This document shows positions 4,840-38,638 of a DNA stretch of 64,000 nt, piece by piece; positions within the stretch are counted from its first letter, which is position 1; every line of letters starts with the position of its first letter. The DNA is from Paraburkholderia aromaticivorans. GTDB lineage: Bacteria > Pseudomonadota > Gammaproteobacteria > Burkholderiales > Burkholderiaceae. Location: assembly GCF_012689525.1 (NCBI RefSeq), contig NZ_CP051515.1, forward strand, positions 744,001 through 808,000. The letters are read 5' to 3'. The position numbers and the translations under genes were made by a program. A model generated the notes under the pieces. It did no database searches and was not told the origin of the DNA. It was given only the letters and a program-made list of their open reading frames with translations.

Positions 4840-5937
4840 ATGTCCGCATTGTTCCAGCCCTACAAGCTCAAAGACGTTTCCCTGCGCAACCGGATCGCCA
4901 TTCCGCCGATGTGCCAGTACACCGCCGAAGACGGCCTGGTCAACGACTGGCACCGCATCCATCTGGCCGGTCTGGCGCGCGGCGGCGCGGGGCTGGTGAT
5001 CGTCGAGGCGACGGCCGTGTCGCCTGAAGGCCGCATCACGCCGGGCTGCGCCGGCATCTGGACGGACGAGCAGGCGCAGGCCTTCGCGCCGGTCGTGGCC
5101 TCAATCAAGGCTGCCGGCTCGGTGCCGGGCATCCAGATCGGCCACGCGGGCCGTAAAGCCAGCGCCAACCGTCCGTGGGAAGGCGACGATCACATCGCCG
5201 ACGACGACAGCCGCGGCTGGCAAACCATCGCGCCGTCGGCGATCGCGTTCGGCGGCAATCTGCCGAAGGTGCCGAAAGCCATGACGCTCGACGACATCGC
5301 GCGCGTTCGCGAAGATTTCGTCGCCGCCGCGAAGCGTGCGCGTGACGCGGGCTTCGAATGGCTCGAACTGCATTTCGCGCATGGCTATCTCGGCCAGAGC
5401 TTCTTCTCGACGCACTCCAACCAGCGCGACGACGCCTACGGCGGCAACCTGAAGAACCGCAGCCGCTTCATGCTCGAAACGCTGGCGGCGGTGCGTAAGG
5501 TGTGGCCGGAGCATCTGCCGTTGACGGCGCGTTTCGGCGTGATCGAGTACGACGGCCGCGACGAGGAAACCCTGGTCGAATCGATCGAACTGGCGAAGAA
5601 TTTCAAGCGCGAAGGCCTCGACATGCTGAGCGTCAGCGTCGGCTTCTCCACGCCGACGGCGGCGATTCCGTGGGCGCCGGCGTTTCTCGCGCCGATCGCC
5701 GAGCGCGTGCGCCGCGAGGCTGGGATTCCGGTTTCGTCGGCGTGGGGTATCGACACGCCGGAACTGGCGGACCGTTCGGTGAAGGACGGGCAACTGGATC
5801 TGGTGATGGTCGGCCGCGCGCATCTGGCCGATCCGCACTGGCCGTATCATGCGGCGAAAAAGCTCGGCATCGAGCGTCCGTCGTGGACGTTGCCGGCGCC
5901 GTACGCGCATTGGCTGGAACGCTATAAGGTCGCTTAA
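4840..5937 (+). CDS. NADH:flavin oxidoreductase, Old Yellow Enzyme family (YqjM/XenA-type)
   Basis: A 365-residue FMN-dependent ene-reductase. It starts LFQPYKLKDVSLRNRIAIPPM with Cys25 in the MCQY segment, the redox-tuning cysteine position of the YqjM/XenA subgroup. It also contains HFAHGYLGQSFFS followed by SNQRDDAYGG and the late VGRAHLADPHW flavin-phosphate motif. The ATG at 4840 follows AGAGGAG closely. Known relatives reduce activated C=C bonds in enals, enones and nitro compounds using NAD(P)H; the natural substrate is unknown. The divergent ArsR gene suggests induction by an electrophile or oxidant. Confidence 0.92.
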   Translation: MSALFQPYKLKDVSLRNRIAIPPMCQYTAEDGLVNDWHRIHLAGLARGGAGLVIVEATAVSPEGRITPGCAGIWTDEQAQAFAPVVASIKAAGSVPGIQIGHAGRKASANRPWEGDDHIADDDSRGWQTIAPSAIAFGGNLPKVPKAMTLDDIARVREDFVAAAKRARDAGFEWLELHFAHGYLGQSFFSTHSNQRDDAYGGNLKNRSRFMLETLAAVRKVWPEHLPLTARFGVIEYDGRDEETLVESIELAKNFKREGLDMLSVSVGFSTPTAAIPWAPAFLAPIAERVRREAGIPVSSAWGIDTPELADRSVKDGQLDLVMVGRAHLADPHWPYHAAKKLGIERPSWTLPAPYAHWLERYKVA

Positions 5938-6072
5938 GCGCCTGAGTTTTCGCGTCGAGTTGGTGGTGCCAATCGTGTCGCCTGCTCCGCCGCTTTATGC
6001 GCCGGGGCGGGCGGTACATTTCATTTCGGCCTCCACGCGAGCGCCCGGCGCCTCGTGCACCAACACGCGCTC

Positions 6073-26524: not shown

Positions 26525-28681
26525 ATGGCGGGAAAAAGACAGTCCGAATTCGCACGGGGATTGAATGGGCGTGCGCTTTGGCACACCCAGGCGCTGATGT
26601 TCGGTGCGCTCGGCGCTTGCGTGTCGGCGTCCGGGCACGCGCAGGCGCTTGCCGGCGGCAGTAGCCTGTTCAGCGGCCAGCGCAACAATGACGGCGTCGA
26701 TGCTTCGGCAATGGTGCGGGATATGTCGGCGTCCACAAGCGAACCTGTTGTGAATCCGTACGCGGAAAGTCCGTCGGCGACGCTCGGCTACGCTTTCAAT
26801 ACGTTCCATACGTCGGGGCAAGGAGCAGCGGACACACAGCGTTATCTTGGCTTGACTGCCGGCGTCAATATCGGCAACTGGCAAGTGCGCGAACGGGGTG
26901 CGTTGCAGTCCAGTACGGGCCGGGGCACGTCATACCAGAATATCGCGGCTTACCTGCAGCATGACATTCCCTCCTTGACGAGCCGGCTCGTGCTCGGGGA
27001 CCAGTTCACGGACGGCGCTGTGTTCGACAGCATCGGCGTGCGCGGCGTAAAGATGGAGAGTGTCGATAGCGCGGAGTCTGAGTCGGTGCCCGGTTACGCA
27101 CCTTTGGTGCGCGGCGTGGCGATGTCGAATGCGCTGGTCACTGTTACGCAGAACGGCAACCGTGTATACGAAGCGACAGTCGCGCCAGGGCCGTTTGAGA
27201 TTAATGACGTTGCAGCAACAGGTTATGGCGGCAATCTGCTCGTCACCGTGACGGAAGCGGACGGCAGTCGGCACAGCTTCACTGTGCCGTATGCATCCGT
27301 CGTGCCACTGGTGCGTCCGGCCTCGACGCGCTTCAGCATCGTCGGTGGCGTGAGCCGTGACCCGCAGATCAGGCATCACAGCGCTTTGCTGCAAGGCGCG
27401 GTTCAGCATGGTTTCAACAGCGTGGTGACGGGCTATGGCGGGGCGATTGTCGCGGACGGTTACCTGTCCGGCCTGATCGGTGCGGCGCTCCGTACGCCGA
27501 TCGGCGCACTGTCGGCCGACGTCTCGGAGGCTCAGGCCGATGTGTCGCATGCGCGGAGTACGCGCGGCACAAGCCTGCGCATCGGCTACAGCAAGTTCGT
27601 CGAGCAGACGGATACGAACGTGTCGATCGCGGCAATTGGCTACTCATCCGGTGGCTTCCTCACGCTGCGCGACGCGATGCTCGGGCGCGACGCGATGCTC
27701 GGGCGGGACGCAGTGCAAATGGGTTGTGGCGCAGATCGCATCGGACGCCGGCGCAACCAGATGCAGATCACGCTGAACCAGCGCGCGGGCGCCGATGGCG
27801 GCGCGCTTTACGTGGTCGGCTCGACATCGAACTATTGGAATCGTTCGGGCTCCGACACGCAGTTCCAGATTGGCTATGCCGGCGCGTTGCGTGTGGCGGA
27901 AGCGAATCTGAACTACACCGTATCGGTTTCCCGTCAGCGCAACGGGTTGGCAGGGCCAATGAGCAATCAGGTGTTCGCAAGCGTCTCGATGCCGCTCGGC
28001 AAGGTGGAGCACGCTTCGACGCTTTCGGCGGGCCTGATGGATGACAGTCGCGCCGGCTGGTCCGAACAGGCCATGCTCGCGGGCTCCGCAGGCGCTGCGG
28101 ATGAACTGCGTTACGGCATGTACGGGACGCACTCAGAGCGGTCGACGACAGGTGGTGGCAATGCGCAGTATCACAGTCCTTACGCGACCTTCGGTGGGAG
28201 CGCGAGCGGCGGTTCCGGCTACTCGCAGGAGTCGGCGAACATTCGGGGCTCGGTGTTTGTTCGCAGGGGAGGCATCACGCTGGGCAACGCGCCTGAAGTC
28301 ACAGCGGATATCGTCCCGCCGAAAAGTGGCGTAGCCGTCAGCTCATCAGACTCTGTTGGCCCGAACGCCGGCAGTCCCGGCTATGTACCCGTGCCGCATC
28401 TGGTGCCGGGCAGTGCGGATCCGATTGAAATCGACGTCCGGCATGACCTGCAAGACGGCAACGCCGGGCCGACGAGTCTGGGGACTGCGTCGCGGTGGAA
28501 TGCGTGGGTCGTCAAGCATGAGTCGGTTGGCGATAACGTTGCTGAGAATGTCGCCACTGCGGACCAGACGGAAGGCGCCGAGCGTTTGATGCTGTTCATG
28601 AACACCGTGCCGATGAAAGTGTATGCCCGTAATTCAGTCGTCTTGTGGTCGGATGTCGAGCGCGGGAACGGGCATCACTGA
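26525..28681 (+). CDS. Usher-like outer-membrane protein lacking the N-terminal chaperone-binding domain
   Basis: A 718-residue protein with a signal peptide (about residues 1-40, cut near ASGHAQA). It then enters the usher beta-barrel directly: GYAFNTFHTSG, YLQHDIPSLTSRLVLGDQFTDGAVFDSIGVRG, the plug-region-like APLVRGVAMSNALVTVTQNGNRVYE and PGPFEINDVAATGYGGNLLVTVTEADGS. Normal fimbrial ushers have about 120 more residues before the barrel for chaperone-subunit binding; these are absent. The C-terminal region is short and degenerate after GYVPVPHLVP. No chaperone or pilin gene is near. It may be a decayed or repurposed usher. Confidence 0.78.
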   Translation: MAGKRQSEFARGLNGRALWHTQALMFGALGACVSASGHAQALAGGSSLFSGQRNNDGVDASAMVRDMSASTSEPVVNPYAESPSATLGYAFNTFHTSGQGAADTQRYLGLTAGVNIGNWQVRERGALQSSTGRGTSYQNIAAYLQHDIPSLTSRLVLGDQFTDGAVFDSIGVRGVKMESVDSAESESVPGYAPLVRGVAMSNALVTVTQNGNRVYEATVAPGPFEINDVAATGYGGNLLVTVTEADGSRHSFTVPYASVVPLVRPASTRFSIVGGVSRDPQIRHHSALLQGAVQHGFNSVVTGYGGAIVADGYLSGLIGAALRTPIGALSADVSEAQADVSHARSTRGTSLRIGYSKFVEQTDTNVSIAAIGYSSGGFLTLRDAMLGRDAMLGRDAVQMGCGADRIGRRRNQMQITLNQRAGADGGALYVVGSTSNYWNRSGSDTQFQIGYAGALRVAEANLNYTVSVSRQRNGLAGPMSNQVFASVSMPLGKVEHASTLSAGLMDDSRAGWSEQAMLAGSAGAADELRYGMYGTHSERSTTGGGNAQYHSPYATFGGSASGGSGYSQESANIRGSVFVRRGGITLGNAPEVTADIVPPKSGVAVSSSDSVGPNAGSPGYVPVPHLVPGSADPIEIDVRHDLQDGNAGPTSLGTASRWNAWVVKHESVGDNVAENVATADQTEGAERLMLFMNTVPMKVYARNSVVLWSDVERGNGHH
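27672..27714 (+). repeat. In-frame 18-bp tandem duplication inside the usher-like gene
   Basis: The six-codon unit encoding DAMLGR occurs twice in a row, with nearly identical bases, followed by a partial third unit (DAV). It falls in a barrel region where related proteins have a loop. Confidence 0.75.
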
Positions 28682-28861
28682 AATTGCCTGGGGCGCTCAC
28701 GCGGAAAGTCGTGACTCGGGGCTGTCATTAAATTGGCGTCGCCTGGTAGCTAAAGATTCGAGAATTGGCCGAGCTTCACTAGAAGCAAAGCCATGTTTTG
28801 TAGGTCGTAGTCTGTAGCTGTAGCTGTACTAACTTTATTTCACCCAAAAAAGGCAAGAAAA

Positions 28862-28981
28862 ATGCAAAAGATCGATCGTAACGCACTGGCTCAATCGAAA
28901 ATCGCTGGTGGCTGCTGCAAGTCCAGCTGTGCACCGGCACCGAAGTGCGCTCCGGCACCGGCACCGAAGTCGAAGGCTTAA
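28862..28981 (+). CDS. Cys-rich Gly-Gly leader peptide (candidate precursor of an exported peptide)
   Basis: A 39-residue gene. Residues 1-17 look like a double-glycine leader ending KIAGG (Ile at -4, Gly at -2 and -1), though the upstream hydrophobic spacing is not the textbook one. Residues 18-39 would be the mature part: it begins CCKSSC, has four Cys (18, 19, 23, 29), two Ala-Pro-Ala-Pro-type runs ending in Lys, and a basic tail. A purine-rich AGGCAAG precedes the ATG. Downstream come an HlyD adaptor, a C39-peptidase ABC exporter and a TolC-type channel, the set that cleaves and exports Gly-Gly peptides. A bacteriocin/microcin is the first guess; a metal-binding or signalling peptide is possible. 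Confidence 0.75.
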   Translation: MQKIDRNALAQSKIAGGCCKSSCAPAPKCAPAPAPKSKA

Positions 28982-29032
28982 GCAGTTTCGCAATAACGGT
29001 GTAAGGGCGGGCTGATTATCCGCCCGCAGTCT

Positions 29033-29066
29033 CGCGAAGCCCAGTCGATCACGACTGGGCTTCGCG
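29033..29066 (+). terminator. Perfect 15-bp hairpin after the peptide gene
   Basis: Perfect stem CGCGAAGCCCAGTCG / CGACTGGGCTTCGCG with an ATCA tetraloop, 51 bases behind the peptide stop. A smaller stem (GGGCGG/CCGCCC) lies just before it. There is no proper T run, so it may be a partial terminator or an mRNA-stabilising structure that sets peptide expression above that of the export genes. Confidence 0.65.
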
Positions 29067-29128
29067 TTCAGATGACGAATGATGGCGTTCCTGCGGAACG
29101 GCTGTGTCACCGTGACGAAGGAACCCGC

Positions 29129-30082
29129 ATGGAGTTGTTAAAAGCGTTGCGCGCGCTGCCCGTTGCCTTCAGGCGCGGTGCGAGGCGGAGCCGCGCCTGG
29201 GTGCAAGGCGCCTGTCTCGCGCGCATTCCGCTCCGTGCGATCGAGCCGCTTGCAATTTCCGCATGGTATGTGGGGAGTCGTTTCAACGCCCGGCTCCGCT
29301 GGAGCGGTATTGAGCGGCGGGATGTCGGGCGCGACGTGTTGAAGCTCGAACGTATTGATGACCATCGCGTGCTGTCGGGCAGGGTGCTCGAGAAACTGAT
29401 CGATCAGCGGCTTCATTTCGGCCGCCAGCGCAATCGCGCCGAAGCCTGGCCGGATTTGCAACGCGCCGCGAGCGTCCTGGCGCAGATCATCAGGAAAGTG
29501 AAAACAGCGACGCCGGAGCGGGCGGTCATCGTTTCGCCGTTTCATTACCTTTCGCAATACGCAAATATTTATTTGATTGACGAACTGCGCAAGCAACTCG
29601 GTCTCGCGTCCATCGGTGTCGTATCGGGCGTGCCGCAAGACATCTACGGAAGCGATGACGCGATGATTCCGCACATCGACATCCTTCACACCTATAGCGA
29701 AACGAACCGCAGCGGATTGGGTTTGCGCGCGGCGCGCTCGCTTAGACGCAACGGTGTCGTCGTGCTGTTTTCCGATGCGCCGCCGTTCACGTTGAGCGGC
29801 TATCCCATGGAGACGGTCGGCGTGTCCATTTTCGGCCGTTCAGCGCGTATTCATAACGGCGTATTCCGCATGGGCGCGCCGCTTGACGCGCTGCTGCTGC
29901 CGTTCTATCTGCGCTTCGAGTGTGGGCGTTTCAGTGCCGTCGTGCTCGAGCCGATCGAACTCGCGCAAAGCGACGCGCCTCAACGTGTCGCCGACTGCAT
30001 CGAGAAAGCGCTGAGAGACAACTATGCGCGCTCGCTGGCCGCCGGACATCCTTCAATGTACGCGTTTGCGCCCGCCAGATAA
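29129..30082 (+). CDS. Acyltransferase-like protein (LpxL/HtrB superfamily, divergent)
   Basis: A 317-residue protein whose second half follows the lysophospholipid/lipid A acyltransferase fold: VIVSPFHYLSQYANIYLIDELRKQLGL, then NGVVVLFSDAPPF, IFGRSARIHNGVFRMGAPLDALLLPFYLR. In active family members a His is followed four residues later by Asp or Glu; here the His in PFHYLSQY has Tyr at that position. It may therefore be inactive or use another residue. ATG 29129 follows AAGGAA. Being between the peptide gene and the exporter, it could modify the peptide or membrane, or give immunity; none is shown. Confidence 0.65.
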   Translation: MELLKALRALPVAFRRGARRSRAWVQGACLARIPLRAIEPLAISAWYVGSRFNARLRWSGIERRDVGRDVLKLERIDDHRVLSGRVLEKLIDQRLHFGRQRNRAEAWPDLQRAASVLAQIIRKVKTATPERAVIVSPFHYLSQYANIYLIDELRKQLGLASIGVVSGVPQDIYGSDDAMIPHIDILHTYSETNRSGLGLRAARSLRRNGVVVLFSDAPPFTLSGYPMETVGVSIFGRSARIHNGVFRMGAPLDALLLPFYLRFECGRFSAVVLEPIELAQSDAPQRVADCIEKALRDNYARSLAAGHPSMYAFAPAR

Positions 30083-30143
30083 CCCACGCAACCGGCGTTA
30101 GAAAGACCCATCTCGTCTCCAGAAGAGAGGCGGCAGGACAGTA

Positions 30144-31349
30144 ATGGAACCAACCAGTATTCCGCAGTTCAAGGACATTTCCTGGCGATGGATCGCCTAT
30201 GTCGCATCGGCAATCGTGATGGTTGCAATTGGCTTCGGCTTCCTGCATGAAGTCGAGCTCAAGCAGGATGTGCAGTGCGAAATCGTGTCGCCGTCTGAAG
30301 TGAAGGTACGGGGTTTGAGCGGACTCGTGACGTCGGTGTACGTGCACCCGTCGGAACGCGTGGCGTCGGGTGCGCCCTTGTTCACACTGCAGCGCGATCT
30401 ATCGTTGTCGAGCGACGGCCGCCAGCGCAATGTGTTCGACTCGCAAATGCGAGACGAGCAGATTCGTGTCGCAGACGAGCAGTACGCGCAGCGCAAGGCG
30501 CAGCTCACCGCGCAGCGAGATGCTTCATCGCTGACCGGCTCGAGCCGTCGAGCGGAACTCAGCGCGCTGGATGAACAGATCACCCAGAACCGCCAGCTTT
30601 CGGAGGAATCACAGCAGAAGCTCGTGCGCCTCAAGTCGGTGTCGGACTACGTTACAGCCGATCGTATCGAGCAGGCCAGCGCCGACGAGCATCAGGTCAA
30701 GGTCTCCATTGCCCAGGGCCGGGCACGCCGCGAACAGTTGCTCGGTGAGATCTCGACGTTAAGCGGCACGCTGATCGACCTCAATGCGCAACTGAAAGAG
30801 AACGACGCCCGGCACGAACAAAGCATTCAGGAAATCCAGATGCGCTTCGAGCAGTCGCGCCTCGACGCAACGATCTCGGCACCGCAGGCGGGAGTCGTCA
30901 CGTTTTCGAAACTCGTGCCGGGCCACATGCTGGAGGCATCCGACGTCGCGCTCGTCATCGCGACGGACGACAAGGGCGCATTGCGGGCGGCGCTACGCAT
31001 TCCGTCGCGACGTCGTGGGTTCGTCGAAAAAGGTCAGACCGTACGGCTTAAATTCGATGCGTTTCCGTACGCGAAATTCGGCAGCTACGAAGCCCGCATC
31101 GACGTTATTTCCGACACGACGATGCAGGCATCCGCATTGCCTCCTGGCGTTCCTGCCTCGCTGGCCGCTCAAGGCGGCGGAGACGGCGACTACCTGGCGT
31201 GGGCAACGCTGCGGGGCAAGACGTTCGACTACGGCAGGCAGCACTTTGACATATTGCCGGGCATGCGAGCGACGGCGAGCATCGTCGTCGAGCGTAGGAC
31301 GATCGCCGAATGGGTGCTGGCGCCGCTTTTCCGCATGATCAGAGGCTAA
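30144..31349 (+). CDS. HlyD-family periplasmic adaptor of the peptide exporter
   Basis: A 401-residue membrane fusion protein. One N-terminal transmembrane helix (about residues 13-33) is followed by a lipoyl-like half-motif (VKVRGLSGLVTSVYVHPSERVASGAPLF), a long coiled-coil hairpin (about residues 95-240), the second lipoyl half (ISAPQAGVVTFSKLVPGHMLEASD) and a beta-barrel domain. It resembles the CvaA/HlyD group working with bacteriocin exporters. Twelve bp separate it from the ABC exporter gene. It would bridge the inner-membrane exporter and the TolC-type channel. Confidence 0.9.
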   Translation: MEPTSIPQFKDISWRWIAYVASAIVMVAIGFGFLHEVELKQDVQCEIVSPSEVKVRGLSGLVTSVYVHPSERVASGAPLFTLQRDLSLSSDGRQRNVFDSQMRDEQIRVADEQYAQRKAQLTAQRDASSLTGSSRRAELSALDEQITQNRQLSEESQQKLVRLKSVSDYVTADRIEQASADEHQVKVSIAQGRARREQLLGEISTLSGTLIDLNAQLKENDARHEQSIQEIQMRFEQSRLDATISAPQAGVVTFSKLVPGHMLEASDVALVIATDDKGALRAALRIPSRRRGFVEKGQTVRLKFDAFPYAKFGSYEARIDVISDTTMQASALPPGVPASLAAQGGGDGDYLAWATLRGKTFDYGRQHFDILPGMRATASIVVERRTIAEWVLAPLFRMIRG

Positions 31350-31361
31350 TCAGGAGGCCCA

Positions 31362-33479
31362 GTGCGAACGATCTATCAGAACGAAGTCGCGGAATGCGGC
31401 TATGCCTGCCTGGCCATGGTGCTTTCCCATCTCGGCCGCGCGACTGAAGTGCGCGAATTGTCCGCGTTCAGGCCAATATCGGCAAATGGTCTGACTTTGA
31501 TGGACCTCTACGACATGGCGACTGACTTCGGCCTGGCGGTACAGGCCTACCGGTTCGACATGGCGGATCTGCCGTCGGCCAAACGCGGCTCGATTCTTCA
31601 CTTCGGTGGCGCGCATTTCGTGGTGTTCGAGAAATGCGGTCGTGGCTACGTGCAGGTCCTCGATCCCGCCAGTGGGCGGCGGCGGGTCTCCATGGATACG
31701 TTCATGGCGAGCGTGTCCGGCTATCTGCTTGAATGCTCGGCTACGCCTTCAATGCCGCGTATTCGCGCGAAATCGCCGGTGCCCGGCGCGCTTGCACGCG
31801 TGCGAGCATTGAATCCCGCGCTACGCAGACAACTGGCGAAAGTCATGTTCGTCGCACTGGGAAGCCAATTCGCGATCCTCGCCATGCCTTATCTCGGTAA
31901 CCTCGTGCTCGACTACGTGGTCTCCGCGGACAACCTGAATTTGCTGAGCGTGCTCGTACTGACATTTGCGGGCATATTCGCGGTCGGGGCGCTGAGCCAG
32001 TATGTGGAGGCCCGCCTCGTCGAACTGCTGCATCAGCTTACGCAGATCAACATGACCGAGGGATTGCTCGGTCATCTCCTGCGTAATCCGATGTCGTGGT
32101 TCGAGAAGCGCCATGTCGGCGACGTTTTCGCACGCGTCAAGGCGCAGGACGAGATTAGCGTCTATGCGACCCGAACCGTGACGTCGATGTGCATCGACAT
32201 CGCGGTGGGATCTCTCGCCCTTGGTCTAATGGTGGTGCAAAGCCCGATGCTGACGGCTGTCGCGGTAGGCATGTTCGTTCTTTACCTCGCCGTCGCGCTG
32301 GGCATGTTCGCGCGCATGCGGGACAACCACGCGCTTGTGCTGGAGACGTCGGCGCGCTGCGACGACGCATTGATCGAAACGATCCGGGCTGCAAGCCTGA
32401 TCAAGCTCGCCCAGGGCGAGACGCGCCGTACGGCGCTCTTCATGATCAAGTACAAAGAATATGTGGGCGCGCTGCTTACGAGTAACCGGTTGAACAGCGC
32501 GCGCGACGCGATCCTCAAACTGGTCCAGTACGCGGACACGATTGCGATCACGTGGTTTGCCGCGCGGCTGATGTTGGCCGGCAGCGTTTCCGTGGGCGTG
32601 TTCTATTCGTTTCTGATCTACAAGTCGTTGATGTCCGAGCGCTTTGCCCATGCCGTCAATGGTGCGTTCGCCTACTTCATGCTGAGCGTGCCGACCGCAC
32701 GCGTGGCGGACATCGTCGAGTGCGAAGAAGAGCGGTATACGCCGCTTGCCGACCGCAACCGCGTGACGGAGATACGTATGTTCGAGCGTATCGAGGTGCG
32801 CAACGTCACGTTTCGTTACGGCGTTTCCGACCAGCCGGTTCTGCGAGACGTGAGCATCGATATCCGGCATGGCGACAAGATCGCCATTACGGGGCCGTCG
32901 GGTGCGGGGAAATCGACATTATTCAAACTGCTGTCGGCTGCCGAGCCGCTGCAGGAAGGCCAGATCATGCTCAACGGCATCGCATGGCCCAATCTGACTA
33001 TCGACGAGATCCGGCGGCATGCGGCCCATATGCGTCAGGGCGACCTGATTCTGCACGGCTCGATTGCCGAAAACATCACGTTATTTGCAGCCAGTATCGA
33101 CGAAGACCGCGTGCATGCGCTGCTCGAAGACGTGGGATTGATGCAGGACGTCATGCGTCTGCCGATGCGCACGCGAACCGTGATTAGCGACACGATTGCG
33201 AACATCTCCGCTGGCCAGCGGCAACGCCTGCTGTTGGCGCGCGCGCTCTATCAGGGCCGAAGTCTGCTGCTGCTCGACGAGCCTACGTCCAATCTGGATC
33301 CGGCTTCGGTGCAACACGTGGCCGCCTTGCTGCGCCGGCTCGACTGCACGGTTGTCGTGATCACCCACGACCGGTCACTGGCAGCCTCGTTCGACGTTCG
33401 ATACCGCCTGATAGACGGCGCGCTGGTGCCCGAGACGCTTGAGCACTTACATCCTCTATCGGAGCCGTTTCATGTTTAA
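31362..33479 (+). CDS. Peptidase-containing ABC exporter (C39 peptidase + ABC)
   Basis: A 705-residue bifunctional exporter. Residues 1-135 are a C39 cysteine peptidase: Cys12 in AECGYACLAMVLSHLG, His85 in GGAHFVVFE and Asp101 in VLDPASG. Six transmembrane helices follow (about 160-430). The ATPase domain has Walker A GPSGAGKS (511-518), a variant signature ISAGQRQRLLLARAL, Walker B LLLLDEPTSNLDP and the VVVITHD switch His. GTG 31362 is chosen by CAGGAGG just upstream. Relatives such as CvaB cut after Gly-Gly and export the released peptide; the neighbouring 39-residue peptide is the natural candidate substrate. Confidence 0.94.
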   Translation: MRTIYQNEVAECGYACLAMVLSHLGRATEVRELSAFRPISANGLTLMDLYDMATDFGLAVQAYRFDMADLPSAKRGSILHFGGAHFVVFEKCGRGYVQVLDPASGRRRVSMDTFMASVSGYLLECSATPSMPRIRAKSPVPGALARVRALNPALRRQLAKVMFVALGSQFAILAMPYLGNLVLDYVVSADNLNLLSVLVLTFAGIFAVGALSQYVEARLVELLHQLTQINMTEGLLGHLLRNPMSWFEKRHVGDVFARVKAQDEISVYATRTVTSMCIDIAVGSLALGLMVVQSPMLTAVAVGMFVLYLAVALGMFARMRDNHALVLETSARCDDALIETIRAASLIKLAQGETRRTALFMIKYKEYVGALLTSNRLNSARDAILKLVQYADTIAITWFAARLMLAGSVSVGVFYSFLIYKSLMSERFAHAVNGAFAYFMLSVPTARVADIVECEEERYTPLADRNRVTEIRMFERIEVRNVTFRYGVSDQPVLRDVSIDIRHGDKIAITGPSGAGKSTLFKLLSAAEPLQEGQIMLNGIAWPNLTIDEIRRHAAHMRQGDLILHGSIAENITLFAASIDEDRVHALLEDVGLMQDVMRLPMRTRTVISDTIANISAGQRQRLLLARALYQGRSLLLLDEPTSNLDPASVQHVAALLRRLDCTVVVITHDRSLAASFDVRYRLIDGALVPETLEHLHPLSEPFHV

Positions 33480-34776
33480 GTTCCGGATGGCGCGCGTTGC
33501 AGTGAGCCTCTTTTGCGCCATTGCGAGTCCCGCGTTTGCGACCGACCTTCTCACGGTTACACAGCAGACGCTCGGCCGCGACTCCGGCCTCGCGCAGGCA
33601 CGCGCCGGCTACGCGGCCGCGCAGCAGGCCGTTCCGCAGGCGCGTGCAGGATTACTGCCGCAAATTTCCGCTGGCTGGGGGCGCACCTACAATCGCCTGG
33701 CGACAGATGGTTTTCCGACGACGTCGTACTGGCAATCGGGCTGGACCGTCAATATCGCGCAGCCCTTGTTCGACTGGACGAAATGGAGCAACTACAAGCA
33801 GGCGGATTCTGTCGAAGCGCGCGGCGCTGTCGAATTGAATGCTGCGCAACAGGCGGTGATTCTGCGGGCCGTGCGCGTATATTTCGAAGCGCTCGTCGCC
33901 GAGGATGAGTTGAGGCGCGTCAGCGATTACGCGGCCGCGGTCGATCAGCACCTGCAATTGATCAATCGAGGCAAAACGGCGGGTGAAGCAACGCTGATCG
34001 ATCTGCGCGACGCACAGACCGCGCGTGAGAAGGTCGCGATCGAGCGGATGGATGCGGAAAACACGTTGCTTGCGAAGCGCCGCGCGTTCGAGCAAGCTAC
34101 AGGCGTGCCGTTCGAGACGCTCGCGCGATTACCTGAGTCGTTGCCCATGCCGCGACTACAACCTGAGGACATCGATGCGTGGGCCGCGCAGGCGAAGAAT
34201 CACGCGTTCGACGTACAACTGAAACAACTGGACTGGGAGATCGCCCGGACGGAAGTGAGCAAGGCGCAGTCGGCGCATTTTCCCTCGGTTTACCTGACCG
34301 GAAGCTATACCCCGGCCGGCGCGGCCTCCGGCTACTCGCGGCCCACAACCACGACAACGGGCATGCTGGCCGTCTCGATACCGATTTTTTCAGGCGGTGA
34401 GACACAGGCAAAGGTGAAGGCGTCATCGGCTCTGGAAGACAAGGCGCAAGAGGGCTTCACGGGCGCAACGCGAGACGCCGAAGCCGCCGCCCGCGACGAT
34501 TACAGTCGCTATCAGTACGGGCGCACGCGGATCGACTTGCTTACCCATCTTGTGGCGTCATCGCAAGAAGTGCTGGCGGCAACTCGGGTCGGTTTTCGCG
34601 TGGGCAGCCGGACGGCTAGCGACGTGCTCAGAGCGATCGACGCGCTCTATGCTTCGCAACGCGATCTGCTGGCGGCTCGTTATGGCGCAATTGTTGCGCT
34701 GATGCAACTCAAGGGCGACACAGCTGCCTTGAGCATGACCGACGTGGTCCAGATCAACAATGTGCTGGTGCACTGA
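33472..34776 (+). CDS. TolC-type outer-membrane efflux channel
   Basis: A 434-residue outer-membrane factor with a signal peptide (about residues 1-23, cut after PAFA) and two repeats of long helices with short barrel strands. Landmarks include ARAGLLPQISAGWG, NIAQPLFDWTKWSNY, the RGKTAGEATLIDLRDAQ segment and VGSRTASDVLRAIDALYASQRDL. ATG 33472 overlaps the end of the exporter gene and has GGAG seven bases upstream. It completes the export line and is dedicated, since a separate NodT-type channel belongs to the EmrAB operon. Confidence 0.92.
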   Translation: MFKFRMARVAVSLFCAIASPAFATDLLTVTQQTLGRDSGLAQARAGYAAAQQAVPQARAGLLPQISAGWGRTYNRLATDGFPTTSYWQSGWTVNIAQPLFDWTKWSNYKQADSVEARGAVELNAAQQAVILRAVRVYFEALVAEDELRRVSDYAAAVDQHLQLINRGKTAGEATLIDLRDAQTAREKVAIERMDAENTLLAKRRAFEQATGVPFETLARLPESLPMPRLQPEDIDAWAAQAKNHAFDVQLKQLDWEIARTEVSKAQSAHFPSVYLTGSYTPAGAASGYSRPTTTTTGMLAVSIPIFSGGETQAKVKASSALEDKAQEGFTGATRDAEAAARDDYSRYQYGRTRIDLLTHLVASSQEVLAATRVGFRVGSRTASDVLRAIDALYASQRDLLAARYGAIVALMQLKGDTAALSMTDVVQINNVLVH

Positions 34777-34911: not shown

Positions 34912-34940
34912 TTGACGCTGTGCGTATGCACATATAGACT
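34912..34940 (+). promoter_or_regulatory. marR1 promoter with GTGC-N4-GCAC operator in the spacer
   Basis: TTGACG at 34912-34917 and TAGACT at 34935-34940 are separated by 17 bases. The palindrome GTGCGTATGCAC at 34920-34931 fills the spacer, so a bound regulator would block RNA polymerase. The same motif (other orientation) occurs at 35418 and 35936. Confidence 0.65.
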
Positions 34941-34947
34941 CCACACC

Positions 34948-35370
34948 ATGAACCGCCCCATCTCTTACGACGAATGCAACTGCTTCGCGCTGCGCCAGGC
35001 GGCCCGGCACGTCACGCAAATCTACGAACGCCACCTCGGCGAGGTAGGACTGACGGCTGCGCAGTTCACGATTCTCGCCAAGCTCGCGCGCATGCCGAAT
35101 CTGCCCATGGTGGATCTGGCGGACGCGATGGTGATGGAGCGCACCACGCTGGTCCGCGCGATGAAACCCTTGCAGCGCGACGGGCTGGTGGTGGCCGAAT
35201 CGGCGGAGCATGACGGCCGCACGTTTCTGTTCAGCCTGACCGAGAAGGGCGAAGCCACGTTCGATCAGGCCGCCGTTGCGTGGCGCGCCGCGCAGGACGA
35301 GTTCGAAAAGAAGTTCGGCCATGCGCGCGCCAAAACGCTGCGCGCCGAACTCTTCAGCATCACTGGCTAG
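34948..35370 (+). CDS. MarR-family transcriptional regulator (first copy)
   Basis: A 140-residue winged-helix regulator. Helical ends form the dimer interface; the DNA-binding core is MVDLADAMVMERTTLVRAMKPLQRDGLVV with the beta wing SAEHDGRTFLFSLTEKG. It has Cys in YDECNCFALRQAARHV near the N-terminus, which could sense oxidants. ATG 34948 is chosen because the family sequence begins there. It precedes a second MarR gene by 81 bp. Its promoter carries the motif shared with the efflux operon, so self-repression and control of efflux are likely. Confidence 0.88.
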   Translation: MNRPISYDECNCFALRQAARHVTQIYERHLGEVGLTAAQFTILAKLARMPNLPMVDLADAMVMERTTLVRAMKPLQRDGLVVAESAEHDGRTFLFSLTEKGEATFDQAAVAWRAAQDEFEKKFGHARAKTLRAELFSITG

Positions 35371-35417
35371 TTGAGGCGCACCCGCTCGTTCCGGCGAGCA
35401 TCGGTCCGCCTCTCTAT

Positions 35418-35429
35418 GTGCATACGCAC
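35418..35429. promoter_or_regulatory. Operator-like palindrome before marR2
   Basis: GTGCATACGCAC, the reverse complement of the site at 34920-34931. It lies 22 bases upstream of the second MarR gene start. Confidence 0.6.
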
Positions 35430-35451
35430 TCACTAACGAGGAAGTGCAGCA

Positions 35452-35874
35452 ATGGAAGGGCTCTTCGACGACGACTGCTTTGCCATCCGCCAGGCCGCGC
35501 GTTATGTCTCGCAGATATACGACCGGCACCTGGTGAATGTCGGGCTGACCATCACGCAATTTTCGCTGCTCGGGCGGCTCAAACGCACCGGCCCCATGAC
35601 GATGAAGCAAATGGCTGAAGCCATGCGCGTGGAACGCACCACATTGGTCCGCACGATCCAGCCGCTGCGCCGCAACGGTTTGGTGTCGAGCGAGGCGCTC
35701 GCTGCCGACGCGCGCGCCCTGACGATCACGCTCACGGCGGCAGGCGAAGAGCGTCTCAAGGCAGGGGGTGAACATTGGCATGCCGCGCAAGCCGAATTCG
35801 AGCATCGTTTCGGCGAACGGCGCGCGGCGGCATTGCGAGGCGAATTGTTCGCCATCACACGGGATTCAATCTGA
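35452..35874 (+). CDS. MarR-family transcriptional regulator (second copy)
   Basis: A 140-residue MarR protein similar to the preceding one: DDDCFAIRQAARYVSQIYDRHLVNVGLTITQFSLLGRL, then MKQMAEAMRVERTTLVRTIQPLRRNGLVS. The two look like a tandem duplication that has diverged. GAGGAAG lies before the ATG. It is followed after 84 bp by the EmrA-type gene, whose upstream region carries the same operator motif. Confidence 0.88.
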   Translation: MEGLFDDDCFAIRQAARYVSQIYDRHLVNVGLTITQFSLLGRLKRTGPMTMKQMAEAMRVERTTLVRTIQPLRRNGLVSSEALAADARALTITLTAAGEERLKAGGEHWHAAQAEFEHRFGERRAAALRGELFAITRDSI

Positions 35875-35935
35875 AGTCGCGGCTACGGCGACGCACGGCC
35901 GGCGCAATCCACGCGCTTTTTTTTCAACGTAACGA

Positions 35936-35947
35936 GTGCATACGCAC
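35936..35947. promoter_or_regulatory. Operator-like palindrome before the EmrA-type gene
   Basis: GTGCATACGCAC again, 11 bases before the ATG at 35959 and between a TTCAAC (-35-like) and a CATATC (-10-like) element. Confidence 0.6.
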
Positions 35948-35958
35948 ATATCGACATC

Positions 35959-37059
35959 ATGTCCACTACTCCATCGACTATCGCCCCGCCGAGCGCGGCG
36001 CAGACCGCCAAACCGGCGCGTCGCATTCCGTGGATGCTGCTCGCGGTCATCACGGTGCTCGCCGTGCTGGCGCTTGCGGCGTCGTACTGGTTCTTCGTCG
36101 GCCGCTTCGTCGAAACGACTGACGATGCCTACGTGGGCGGTGATGTCACCGTGATGGCGCCGAAGGTGAACGGCTTCGTCACGGACGTGCTCGTGCACGA
36201 CAACCAGTTTGTCCACGCGAACGAGGTGCTGATCCGCCTCGACGCGCGTGATTACGACGCGCGGCTCGCGCAGGCCACGGCGGAAGTGCAGAGCGCGCAA
36301 GCCTCCGTGACTGAACTGCAGGCGAAAAAGTCCTTGCAACTCGCCACCATCAACGAGCAGGCCGCCGAGGTCCGCGCGTCCGGCGCCGAATTGACGCGCA
36401 GCGCCGCGGACCAGACGCGCTACCGCGAACTGGTGAAGGACGACGCGGTATCGAATCAGGTCGTCGAACGCGCGGATGCCGATCTGACCAAAGCGCACGC
36501 GGCGGTCGATCGCAGCAGCGCGGCGCTGATCGCGGCGCAACGCCAGATCGCCGTGCTCGACGCGCAGATTGGCGATGCCGAGGCGCGCATCGCGACGGCG
36601 CAAGCCGCCCAGCGTGTCGCGGCCCTGAATGTGGAGTACACGACGATTCGCTCGCCGATCGACGGCTATGTCGGCAATCGCACGGCGCGTGTCGGCCTGC
36701 TGGCGAACACTGGCGTGTCGCTGCTGACCGTGGTGCCGTCGAGCGGATTGTGGATCGACGCCAACTTCAAGGAAGACCAGTTGAAGAAGATGCGCGTCGG
36801 CGACACCGTCGATGTCGACCTCGACGCCTCGAGCACGCCTATTCACGGCGTGGTGGAGAGTCTCGCGCCGGCCACTGGCGCTACGTTCAGCGTGTTGCCC
36901 GCCGAAAACGCCACGGGCAACTTCACGAAGATCGTGCAGCGTGTGCCGGTGCGTGTGCGGCTGGATGTGCCGAAGGCCATGCAAGGCGTGCTGCGTCCCG
37001 GCCTGTCAGCCACGGTGAAGGTGCATGTCGACGCTGGCGACACGCCGGCGCGCGGATGA
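35959..37059 (+). CDS. emrA: EmrA-type membrane fusion protein of a multidrug efflux pump
   Basis: A 366-residue adaptor with one N-terminal transmembrane helix (about residues 26-47). The EmrA signature ETTDDAYVGGDVTVMAPKVNGFV follows, then a coiled-coil hairpin (about residues 100-220), the second lipoyl half (TTIRSPIDGYVGNR) and a beta-barrel (SGLWIDANFKEDQLKKMRVGD). It links the EmrB-type transporter to an outer-membrane channel. First gene of an efflux operon with emrB (7 bp further) and a NodT-type channel. Confidence 0.92.
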   Translation: MSTTPSTIAPPSAAQTAKPARRIPWMLLAVITVLAVLALAASYWFFVGRFVETTDDAYVGGDVTVMAPKVNGFVTDVLVHDNQFVHANEVLIRLDARDYDARLAQATAEVQSAQASVTELQAKKSLQLATINEQAAEVRASGAELTRSAADQTRYRELVKDDAVSNQVVERADADLTKAHAAVDRSSAALIAAQRQIAVLDAQIGDAEARIATAQAAQRVAALNVEYTTIRSPIDGYVGNRTARVGLLANTGVSLLTVVPSSGLWIDANFKEDQLKKMRVGDTVDVDLDASSTPIHGVVESLAPATGATFSVLPAENATGNFTKIVQRVPVRVRLDVPKAMQGVLRPGLSATVKVHVDAGDTPARG

Positions 37060-37066
37060 GCCGATC

Positions 37067-38638
37067 ATGACTCAAGTTCTCGCCAACCCCGCCGACCTGC
37101 CGACGCGAATCAAAGTCCTGGCGTTCACGTTGATGTGCGTCGGGTTTTTCATGGCGACGCTCGATATTCAGATCGTGGCGTCGTCGCTCAAGGACATCGG
37201 CGGCGGCTTGTCCGCGAGCCAGGACGAACTCTCGTGGGTGCAGACCTCGTATCTGATCGCTGAAATTCTGGTGATCCCGATGTCCGGCTGGCTCACCCGA
37301 GTGTTCTCCACGCGCTGGGTGTTCGCGTTTTCCGCGCTCGGTTTTACGGTCACCAGCATGTTGTGCGGTCTCGCGTGGGACATCAACTCGATGATCCTGT
37401 TCCGCGGTTTGCAGGGCGCGCTCGGCGCCGCGATGATCCCGACGGTGTTCACCACGGCGTTCGTGCTGTTCCCCGGGAAGCAGCGCCTGATCGCCTCCAC
37501 CACCATCAGCGCGCTCGCCACGCTCGCGCCGACCATTGGTCCGGTGATCGGCGGCTGGATCACGTCGCAATGGTCGTGGCACTGGCTGTTCTATCTGAAC
37601 CTGGTGCCGGGCCTCGCCGTCACGCTGATGGTGCCGAAGTACGTGCACTTCGACGAGGTCGATCTGTCGCTGCTGAAGAAAGGCGATTACCTCGGCATCC
37701 TGCTGATGTCCGGCTTTCTCGGTTGCCTCGAATACGTGCTGGAGGAAGGGCCGCGTAAGAACTGGTTCGGCGACGACGTGATCCTGACGTGCGCGTGGAT
37801 CACGGCGATTTGCGGATTCCTGTTCCTCGTGCATGCGTTCACCGCGAAAGAGCCGATCGTCGATTTGCGCGCGTTGGCGATTCGTAACTTCGGTATTGGC
37901 AGTCTGCTGTCGTTCATCACCGGGATCGGGATTTTCTGCGCGGTGTTTCTGACGCCGGTGTTCCTGTCTCGTGTGCGTGGCTTTGATTCGCTGCAGATCG
38001 GCGTGGCGTTGCTGTCGGTCGGCTGTTTTCAGCTGGTCGCGATGGTGGTGTATTCGGTGGTCGCGCGCTTTATTGACATGCGGATCCTGCTGGTGTTCGG
38101 CCTGGTGCTGTTCGGCGTCGGCTGTTATCTGTATGTGCCGCTGACCAGTCAATGGGGCTGGCACGAGTTGCTGATCCCGCAGGCGTTGCGCGGCATCGGC
38201 CAGCAGTTCTGCATTCCACCCATCGTCACGATGGCGCTGGGTTCATTGCCGATGTCGAGGCTTCGTTCCGCCAGCGGCCTGTTCAACCTGATGCGTAACC
38301 TCGGCGGCGCGATCGGCATTGCGGTGAGCAGCACGATGCTCAACGACCGCCTGAACCTGCACTACGAGCGGCTCGATGAACATCTGAACGTGGGCCGTCC
38401 GGTGGTCGAATCGATCTTGCAGCAGCAAAGCGCGCATTTCGCGGCAGTGGGCGGCAACGTGCTGAACGCGGCCAACGCCGGCCTCGGTGAACTGCATGCG
38501 CTGCTGATGCGCGAAGCACTCGTGCTGACGTTCTCCGACACGTTTTACGCCCTGTCGCTGTGTTTCGTGGTCGGCCTGTTGAGCGTGCTGTTCTCACGCC
38601 CGTTCGGCAATACCGCGCCGCCGCCCGATGCCCATTGA
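37067..38638 (+). CDS. emrB: EmrB-type MFS multidrug transporter (DHA2, 14 TM)
   Basis: A 523-residue major facilitator with 14 predicted helices. The DHA2 landmarks are visible: GFFMATLDIQIVASSLKDIGGGLSASQDELSWVQTSYLIAEI, SGWLTRVFSTR, RGLQGALGAAMIP and LAPTIGPVIGGWI. ATG 37067 follows the emrA stop by 7 bases. It would export hydrophobic drugs or acids by proton antiport through EmrA and the following outer-membrane protein. Confidence 0.93.
   Translation: MTQVLANPADLPTRIKVLAFTLMCVGFFMATLDIQIVASSLKDIGGGLSASQDELSWVQTSYLIAEILVIPMSGWLTRVFSTRWVFAFSALGFTVTSMLCGLAWDINSMILFRGLQGALGAAMIPTVFTTAFVLFPGKQRLIASTTISALATLAPTIGPVIGGWITSQWSWHWLFYLNLVPGLAVTLMVPKYVHFDEVDLSLLKKGDYLGILLMSGFLGCLEYVLEEGPRKNWFGDDVILTCAWITAICGFLFLVHAFTAKEPIVDLRALAIRNFGIGSLLSFITGIGIFCAVFLTPVFLSRVRGFDSLQIGVALLSVGCFQLVAMVVYSVVARFIDMRILLVFGLVLFGVGCYLYVPLTSQWGWHELLIPQALRGIGQQFCIPPIVTMALGSLPMSRLRSASGLFNLMRNLGGAIGIAVSSTMLNDRLNLHYERLDEHLNVGRPVVESILQQQSAHFAAVGGNVLNAANAGLGELHALLMREALVLTFSDTFYALSLCFVVGLLSVLFSRPFGNTAPPPDAH

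Follow-up and report, generated by a model that had tools for sequence, protein, structure and literature searches.

A peptide, acyltransferase and C39 export unit of Paraburkholderia as a candidate ribosomal lipopeptide system

Known systems and the locus in outline

Among ribosomal peptides, the selidamides and nostolysamides bear fatty acids that an acyltransferase of the GNAT family attaches to the side chain of a lysine or an ornithine. The npu cluster, which includes a C39 transporter, has a precursor with a Gly-Gly leader, and its acylated residue is Lys1 (PMC13060382). A five-gene unit in a 64,000-nucleotide stretch of Paraburkholderia aromaticivorans (contig NZ_CP051515.1, positions 744,001 to 808,000; this whole stretch is called the window, and positions are given in its own numbering) shares with these systems a ribosomal precursor with a Gly-Gly leader, a clustered acyltransferase and an exporter with a C39 peptidase. 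On balance, the unit appears to be a self-contained biosynthesis and export line for a secreted ribosomal peptide that is probably fatty-acylated by the neighbouring acyltransferase.

Several differences from the described systems can be listed. The selidamide enzyme is a GNAT, whereas the unit has an enzyme with a predicted PatA/LpxM fold and no other widely shared enzyme. The npu system has a Nif11-type leader and a lanthionine synthetase; by contrast, the unit has a 17-residue leader type, no lanthionine synthetase among its shared genes, and a built-in TolC line. The fatty acyl group of the selidamides and nostolysamides sits on a lysine near the N-terminus of the core, and the unit offers in this respect only a conserved lysine at the third core position (Lys+3). 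The best reading of the comparison is that the unit would work like the selidamides, with another enzyme family and another leader.

Class II microcins and colicin V, whose export is of the CvaAB-TolC type, likewise combine a Gly-Gly leader, a C39-ABC exporter and an HlyD adaptor for export from Gram-negative cells. The unit differs from them in its leader spacing, its dedicated TolC and its acyltransferase, as well as in its hydrophilic, low-complexity cores and in showing no immunity gene among proteins of at least 90 residues. As a putative acylated, C39-exported ribosomal peptide system, it has a fair chance of representing a new lipopeptide class.

All five genes (a 39-residue frame, an acyltransferase-like gene, an HlyD adaptor, a C39-ABC exporter and a TolC-type channel) lie on the + strand between 28862 and 34776, and every feature of the layout given in a preliminary description of the window is present where it had been placed:

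28862-28912, + strand: double-glycine leader of 17 residues, MQKIDRNALAQSKIAGG; all 113 unique relatives from the leader-pattern search share this length
28913-28981, + strand: core peptide CCKSSCAPAPKCAPAPAPKSKA followed by the stop codon; N-terminal Cys and Lys+3 conserved, tail variable
29033-29066, + strand: strong hairpin between the peptide and acyltransferase genes, no T-run; z-score and covarying stem
29129-30082, + strand: acyltransferase with predicted PatA/LpxM fold, 317 residues from ATG 29129; open reading frame opens at 29072
30144-31349, + strand: HlyD-type periplasmic adaptor; Pfam HlyD_3
31362-33479, + strand: C39 peptidase-ABC exporter (PCAT-type), GTG start; Peptidase_C39 (E 3e-24), ABC_membrane and ABC_tran
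33472-34776, + strand: TolC-type outer-membrane channel; OEP, and TIGR01844 at 242 bits (cut-off 225)

The frame at 28862-28981 thus reads MQKIDRNALAQSKIAGG as leader and CCKSSCAPAPKCAPAPAPKSKA as core. The acyltransferase probably starts at ATG 29129 and not at 29072, since the alignments of most relatives begin further inside the frame. For the TolC gene, whose frame is open from 33439, the likely start is ATG 33472, which provides a signal peptide (MFKFRMARVAVSLFCAIASPAFA) and makes the gene overlap the end of the exporter gene. The source genome is a 10.8-Mb assembly of four contigs, and the nearest named relatives by locus are Paraburkholderia sp. BL9I2N2, Paraburkholderia sp. BL25I1N1 and P. 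xenovorans LB400, the last of which has the unit on chromosome 2 (L181).

The precursor gene and its leader

Judged by its conservation, the 39-residue frame is a real gene for a secreted-peptide precursor. The loci around orthologous exporters of the genus were fetched (67 further loci from 66 other genomes, one with two copies), and each of the 67 holds one or more short frames with the leader pattern. It is because a related frame occurs in all of them, always with a 17-residue leader, that chance is not an adequate explanation. The consensus M-x-K-I-x-R-x-x-L-x4-[VIL]-A-G-G stands beside the orthologous exporter in 68 of 68 genus loci (the 67 and the window). Elsewhere in the family, 16 of 21 close exporter places were fetched, and 14 of these 16 hold a linked short precursor of this kind.

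Peptide counts are those of a leader-pattern scan, since many E<=1 matches of the similarity search were due to chance. The pattern fixed R6, L9 and the Gly-Gly, partly imposed I4 and A15, and allowed lengths of about 16-20 residues; the exact leader length, K3 and the core residues, including Lys+3, were free. Three of 113 rows were dropped (an antisense frame in locus L073, duplicate starts in L130 and L163) and five peptides of L187, L213 and L239 were added, which gives 115 peptides, 113 of them unique and three of them orphans away from the unit. All 113 unique peptides have a leader of 17 residues.

The ratio of non-synonymous to synonymous polymorphism (pN/pS) is 0.36 for the leader overall and 0.45 at leader codons free of the search pattern. 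In the core, whose codons were not aligned for indels, it is 0.29 at +3, 0.60 over +1 to +3 and 0.90 over +4 to +12. A ribosome-binding-like stretch precedes most of the peptide ATGs displayed. The preliminary description had let its case for the small frame depend on conservation upstream of orthologous exporters and on synonymous-site bias, and both are found, the former in 68 of 68 genus loci and the latter as 0.45 in the leader against 0.90 in the core from +4 to +12. Its remark that the leader spacing is atypical also holds: the conserved hydrophobic residues lie at -4, -9 and -14, and not at the usual -4, -7 and -12 marked for double-glycine leaders in a figure legend of PMC10885120.

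No meaningful family was found for the window peptide in Pfam (nothing at E<=1), NCBIfam (one match, E 0.53) or PADLOC. NCBIfam matches over 72 relatives were scattered and weak (the best being SCIFF at 0.0006 in one and listeriolysin S at 0.0019 in three), and they were set aside as composition effects. A lipoprotein-like lipobox was ruled out as well, the precursor having no hydrophobic signal peptide and Ala at -3. A database search led by a 44-residue relative returned 78 proteins at E<=1, 59 of which are not identical to locus peptides; none has a Pfam domain, and those that carry a name are called hypothetical or uncharacterised, except for one automatic 'six-cysteine peptide' label. Search listings and abstract openings in the literature contained nothing on the unit, and five leader or core strings occurred in no paper text searched.

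Two related findings lie outside the unit or the counts. Orphan peptides with the same leader type (cores GNKG... and SNKGG...) occur away from the unit in unit-carrying genomes (L136, L137, L138). In Rhodanobacter locus L227 (5152-5750), two short frames, spotted by eye and not counted, have leaders ending in AAG instead of AGG and cores beginning CCDKCC... and ASIKDS....

A constant N-terminus and a variable tail

Lys+3 is the best-conserved core residue, being present in 104 of the 113 unique peptides; it is also found in 76 of 78 proteins of the database set, a figure biased towards Lys+3 because the search profile contained it. Cys occupies +1 in 84 of 113. Altogether, 88 loci were scored for these residues and 10 set aside as not intact, some of them (e.g. 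L099, L112, L174) only on account of contig ends or start-codon picking; the window, L187, L213 and L239 were set as intact by hand. A peptide with Cys at +1 or +2 is encoded in every one of the 78 intact loci and in six of the 10 others. Cys1 and Lys3 occur together in one peptide in 75 of the 78, the exceptions being L162, whose Lys is at +2, and L120 and L126, whose cores start with CCG and have no Lys before +6. Nineteen loci encode two to four peptides each, in every case a mixture of peptides with and without Cys1.

Beyond the N-terminus little is kept. The number of core Cys ranges from 0 to 5, 26 of the 113 cores have none, and 24 of the 66 peptides that start with CC lack Cys after +2. 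A Cys-rich core with four Cys, which the preliminary description had taken as the hallmark of the peptide, therefore does not define the family: no Cys pattern is kept past the N-terminal residue, and the four-Cys arrangement of the window peptide is, on this comparison, a local feature. Mature peptides, counted after the Gly-Gly cut, would be 16-57 residues long, with quickly changing tails rich in Ser, Thr, Ala and Pro. Against seven close relatives, the window leader is 94-100% identical and the acyltransferase 74-96%, the core only 42-59%. The mature product would combine a constant Cys-x-Lys N-terminus, which may bear a lipid, with a fast-changing tail. A leader that stays the same while the core is free to vary points to a tolerant production line.

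The acyltransferase

The preliminary description had listed the acyltransferase and had drawn nothing from it. Of the five genes, it is the one that most sets the unit apart. The window protein matches nothing in Pfam at E<=1; only two of 42 family members, the window's not among them, match Lip_A_acyltrans at that threshold (best E 0.0074), and the family profile matches no PDB sequence at E<=10. The structure model (predicted local distance difference test score, pLDDT, 84.8) has the alpha/beta fold common to the LpxL/PatA-type superfamily, which is known for acylating lipids, and on this model the enzyme is predicted to belong to the PatA/LpxM fold group.

The predicted fold, a catalytic His and a downstream acidic residue would be shared with PatA, which acylates phosphatidylinositol mannoside (PIM), and with LpxM and LpxL, the secondary acyltransferases of lipid A. 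The catalytic pair of PatA is H126/E200, that is, His and the Glu/Asp of block 3. In the unit enzyme H139 and D216 are invariant in 42 of 42 sequences, and they fall on the His and Asp of the LpxL family in a weak profile alignment. There are differences as well: identity to PatA/LpxM is 9-13% in one structure comparison and 13-17% in another, the Asp/Glu of the HX4D/E motif is replaced by Tyr (H139-YLSQ-Y144 in the window; Tyr144 in at least 90% of the 42 sequences), and the gene is tied to a peptide exporter.

The export line

The exporter has the full C39-ABC domain set, with an N-terminal C39 domain followed by ABC membrane and ATPase domains. Its catalytic triad, which the preliminary description had reported as intact, is indeed invariant (Cys12, His85 and Asp101, along with Q6) in 27 of 27 aligned exporters. 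The best solved relative is 4ry2, an entry listed as an ABC-type bacteriocin transporter that we take to be PCAT1, with a match over residues 5-690 of 705 (E 1.3e-60). Unlike PCAT1, the exporter belongs to a clade of its own, with its own leader type. In an order-level sample of 300 genomes, 16 match it at E<=1e-120; the source genome and a second genome of its genus exceed 1360 bits, and the third-best match reaches 442 bits.

That the peptide is the cargo, as first proposed from the window alone, is supported by the leader frame beside the exporter in all 68 genus loci; we consider it very probable, and export with Gly-Gly cleavage is well supported by these sequence features.

Nine more distant exporter loci have no match to the acyltransferase or the TolC of the unit, and three of them encode Gly-Gly peptides with ordinary 15-residue leaders, e.g. 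MKELNQMELDNVAGG. A Gly-Gly peptide array of another kind is seen in one of the nine, L296, where six tandem copies, 139 bases apart, of a 38-residue frame ending ILIGG|GEAVG(T/S)TY lie beside a C39-ABC exporter (about 5156-5965). A 32% paralogue in genome group g12 (Burkholderia by its named members) was rejected as the same system, its loci L175-L178 having neither an acyltransferase match nor a leader-pattern peptide.

Distribution and conservation of the unit

An exporter match at E<=1e-100 is found in 67 of 144 genomes of the genus, the source genome included. The acyltransferase, HlyD and exporter are matched in all 67 fetched loci, with the exporter match broken or partial in L131, L133 and L134, and TolC in all but L099, which lies at a contig end. 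A scan of named genomes with the acyltransferase alone also gave 67 loci, largely from the same species; all have adjoining exporter and HlyD matches, and 65 have TolC. They include Caballeronia, Burkholderia seminalis, Cupriavidus lacunae and Pseudomonas nitroreducens TX1, and the unit of Rhodanobacter sp. MP7CTX1 has no TolC match. The order of genes varies, the acyltransferase following the exporter or TolC gene instead of preceding HlyD in L221, L227, L231, L234, L239 and L244; despite this reordering, it accompanies the peptide and exporter in every otherwise whole copy read. In a class-level sample of 369 genomes the acyltransferase was found at E<=1e-5 in the window's genome only, and the unit is therefore, by these searches, patchy and centred on Paraburkholderia and Caballeronia.

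When frames of at least 90 residues were clustered over the 68 loci, only the acyltransferase, HlyD, exporter and TolC, with frames shadowing them, proved widely shared. The next-widest cluster occurs in 23 of 68 loci, so that no immunity gene is evident at this size, in agreement with the preliminary description; frames below 90 residues were not clustered, and a very small immunity peptide would escape.

The spacer hairpin

The 147-nucleotide spacer between the peptide and acyltransferase genes folds with a z-score of -4.37 in the window. Among 10 of 87 spacers scored, nine have negative values (-1.81 to -8.12) and one is at +0.85. The stem covaries in 17 other, hand-picked spacers, with compensatory changes at 8 of 12 pairs. 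A terminator scan gave no terminator-like match at 29033-29066. The lack of a T-run suggests that the hairpin is not a simple terminator but an attenuator or an element that stabilises the mRNA; either would be expected to tip expression towards the peptide and away from the machinery.

Ahead of the peptide gene, at 28764-28799, the sequence around ATTGGCCGAG and GCCATGTTT hardly varies in the seven closest relatives, although the DNA on either side differs; this is a possible regulatory site.

Proposed pathway and alternatives

In the proposed pathway, the precursor would be made from its own short gene, the 3' hairpin probably letting its expression exceed that of the machinery. The PatA/LpxM-fold enzyme would next acylate the precursor with a fatty acid, Lys+3 and the N-terminal Cys being the likeliest sites. 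Leader removal would follow acylation of this Cys1/Lys3 element: the C39 domain, to judge from its intact triad and the strictly conserved leader, would recognise the 17 residues and cut after Gly-Gly. Finally, the ABC exporter, HlyD and the dedicated TolC would, as their families suggest, take the mature peptide out of the cell. Acylation of Cys1/Lys3 is the simplest reading, because the enzyme accompanies the peptide and exporter in every otherwise whole copy read and Cys1/Lys3 is the most constant part of the product, and we rate acylation of the peptide by this enzyme slightly above an even chance. The product would be a ribosomal lipopeptide that acts at surfaces, in signalling or in competition. 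A new lipopeptide class, in which a lipid-A/PIM-type acyltransferase has been repurposed for Cys-x-Lys, with tails tuned by lineage and sometimes two to four peptides per line, is a more tentative proposal that falls somewhat short of even. If the enzyme does act on the peptide, a lipid-acylating superfamily would gain a peptide-modifying branch, and close to half of the species sampled (67 of 144 genomes of the genus have an exporter match) would carry an unnoticed ribosomal lipopeptide.

Several observations weigh against acylation of the peptide. The family membership of the enzyme rests on the predicted fold, because the LpxL profile match is weak (E 0.0034 one-to-one and a probability of 9.6% in hhalign, with a profile for which 27 of 28 acyltransferase sequences were chosen by a motif score), and the acid that most relatives have in HX4D/E is the Tyr noted above. 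The acceptor could be a lipid, as it is for the enzyme's fold relatives, and Lys+3 might serve cleavage or transport instead. Some extra peptides in unit loci have no Lys+3 (L077, L079, L082, L187), and the acyltransferase is intact in L120 and L126, where the first Lys is at +6. Lastly, neither peptide nor acyltransferase was found in L169 (longer as L301) despite a full exporter frame; there, usher-like and HlyD-end matches meet, in what looks like a deletion.

The alternative that survives best, although unlikely, is that the peptide is exported unmodified and the acyltransferase alters one of the producer's own membrane lipids, such as lipid A or ornithine lipid, for self-protection or to provide a suitable export membrane, the system being microcin-like with the acyltransferase as immunity factor. 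PatA acts on PIM and LpxM is annotated as acylating lipid A, the 68 loci show no other immunity candidate of at least 90 residues, and an arms race would fit cores that diverge so much more than the leader and acyltransferase do. This account leaves the near-invariant Lys+3 and Cys+1 of otherwise hypervariable cores unexplained, however. Moreover, the genome already holds three near-full-length Lip_A_acyltrans matches and one partial, and low-complexity Ser/Thr/Pro/Ala cores differ from pore-forming class II microcins.

Improbable, but next in order, is a secreted metal-binding peptide in which the free N-terminal amine, Cys1 (with Cys2 and further Cys) and Lys3 form the site and the acyltransferase is auxiliary. 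The frequent Cys+1, and the presence in every intact locus of a peptide with Cys at +1 or +2, would suit such a site; the further Cys are not conserved, as the Cys-free cores and the CC-starting peptides without later Cys illustrate, and no further transporter or receptor is common to the loci.

We regard as less probable again that the peptides are structural, with Ser/Thr-rich cores that have beta-prone repeats at their ends forming fibres or a surface coat, the Cys1 peptide acting as nucleator and its Cys-less partners as bulk subunit. The 19 loci that pair Cys1 peptides with others fit this division of labour, as do alternating patterns such as TTVVVVKVG, TNTVNITIGS and NTITVVVKR, but most genus loci, the window included, have a single peptide without such strands. 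Scarcely credible, even though the conserved spacer hairpin indicates RNA features in the region too, is a chance frame in a conserved untranslated region with the exporter cargo elsewhere, given the leader in frame in 113 unique sequences with its pN/pS of 0.36 (0.45 at pattern-free codons), the ribosome-binding-like stretches and the tandem paralogues in 19 loci.

Neighbouring genes

An usher gene (26525-28681, 718 residues, PF00577, E 1.5e-114) lies directly upstream of the peptide unit and seems short at its N-terminus compared with matched usher profiles; an usher match near the unit is found in some relatives only. About 0.9-1.7 kb upstream of the acyltransferase, many genus loci (L088, L092, L096-L100 and others) encode a conserved, apparently secreted protein of about 88 residues (MKALLHAC...NSPGVPGGILQ...CNLQCPKDE), which is probably a syntenic neighbour of the unit. 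Downstream in the window, judged from translations alone, two adjoining and similar MarR-like regulator frames (34912-35370 and 35452-35874) are followed by an EmrA-like HlyD protein and an MFS transporter (35959-38638), and the genes from 34912 to 38638 apparently form a separate efflux unit.

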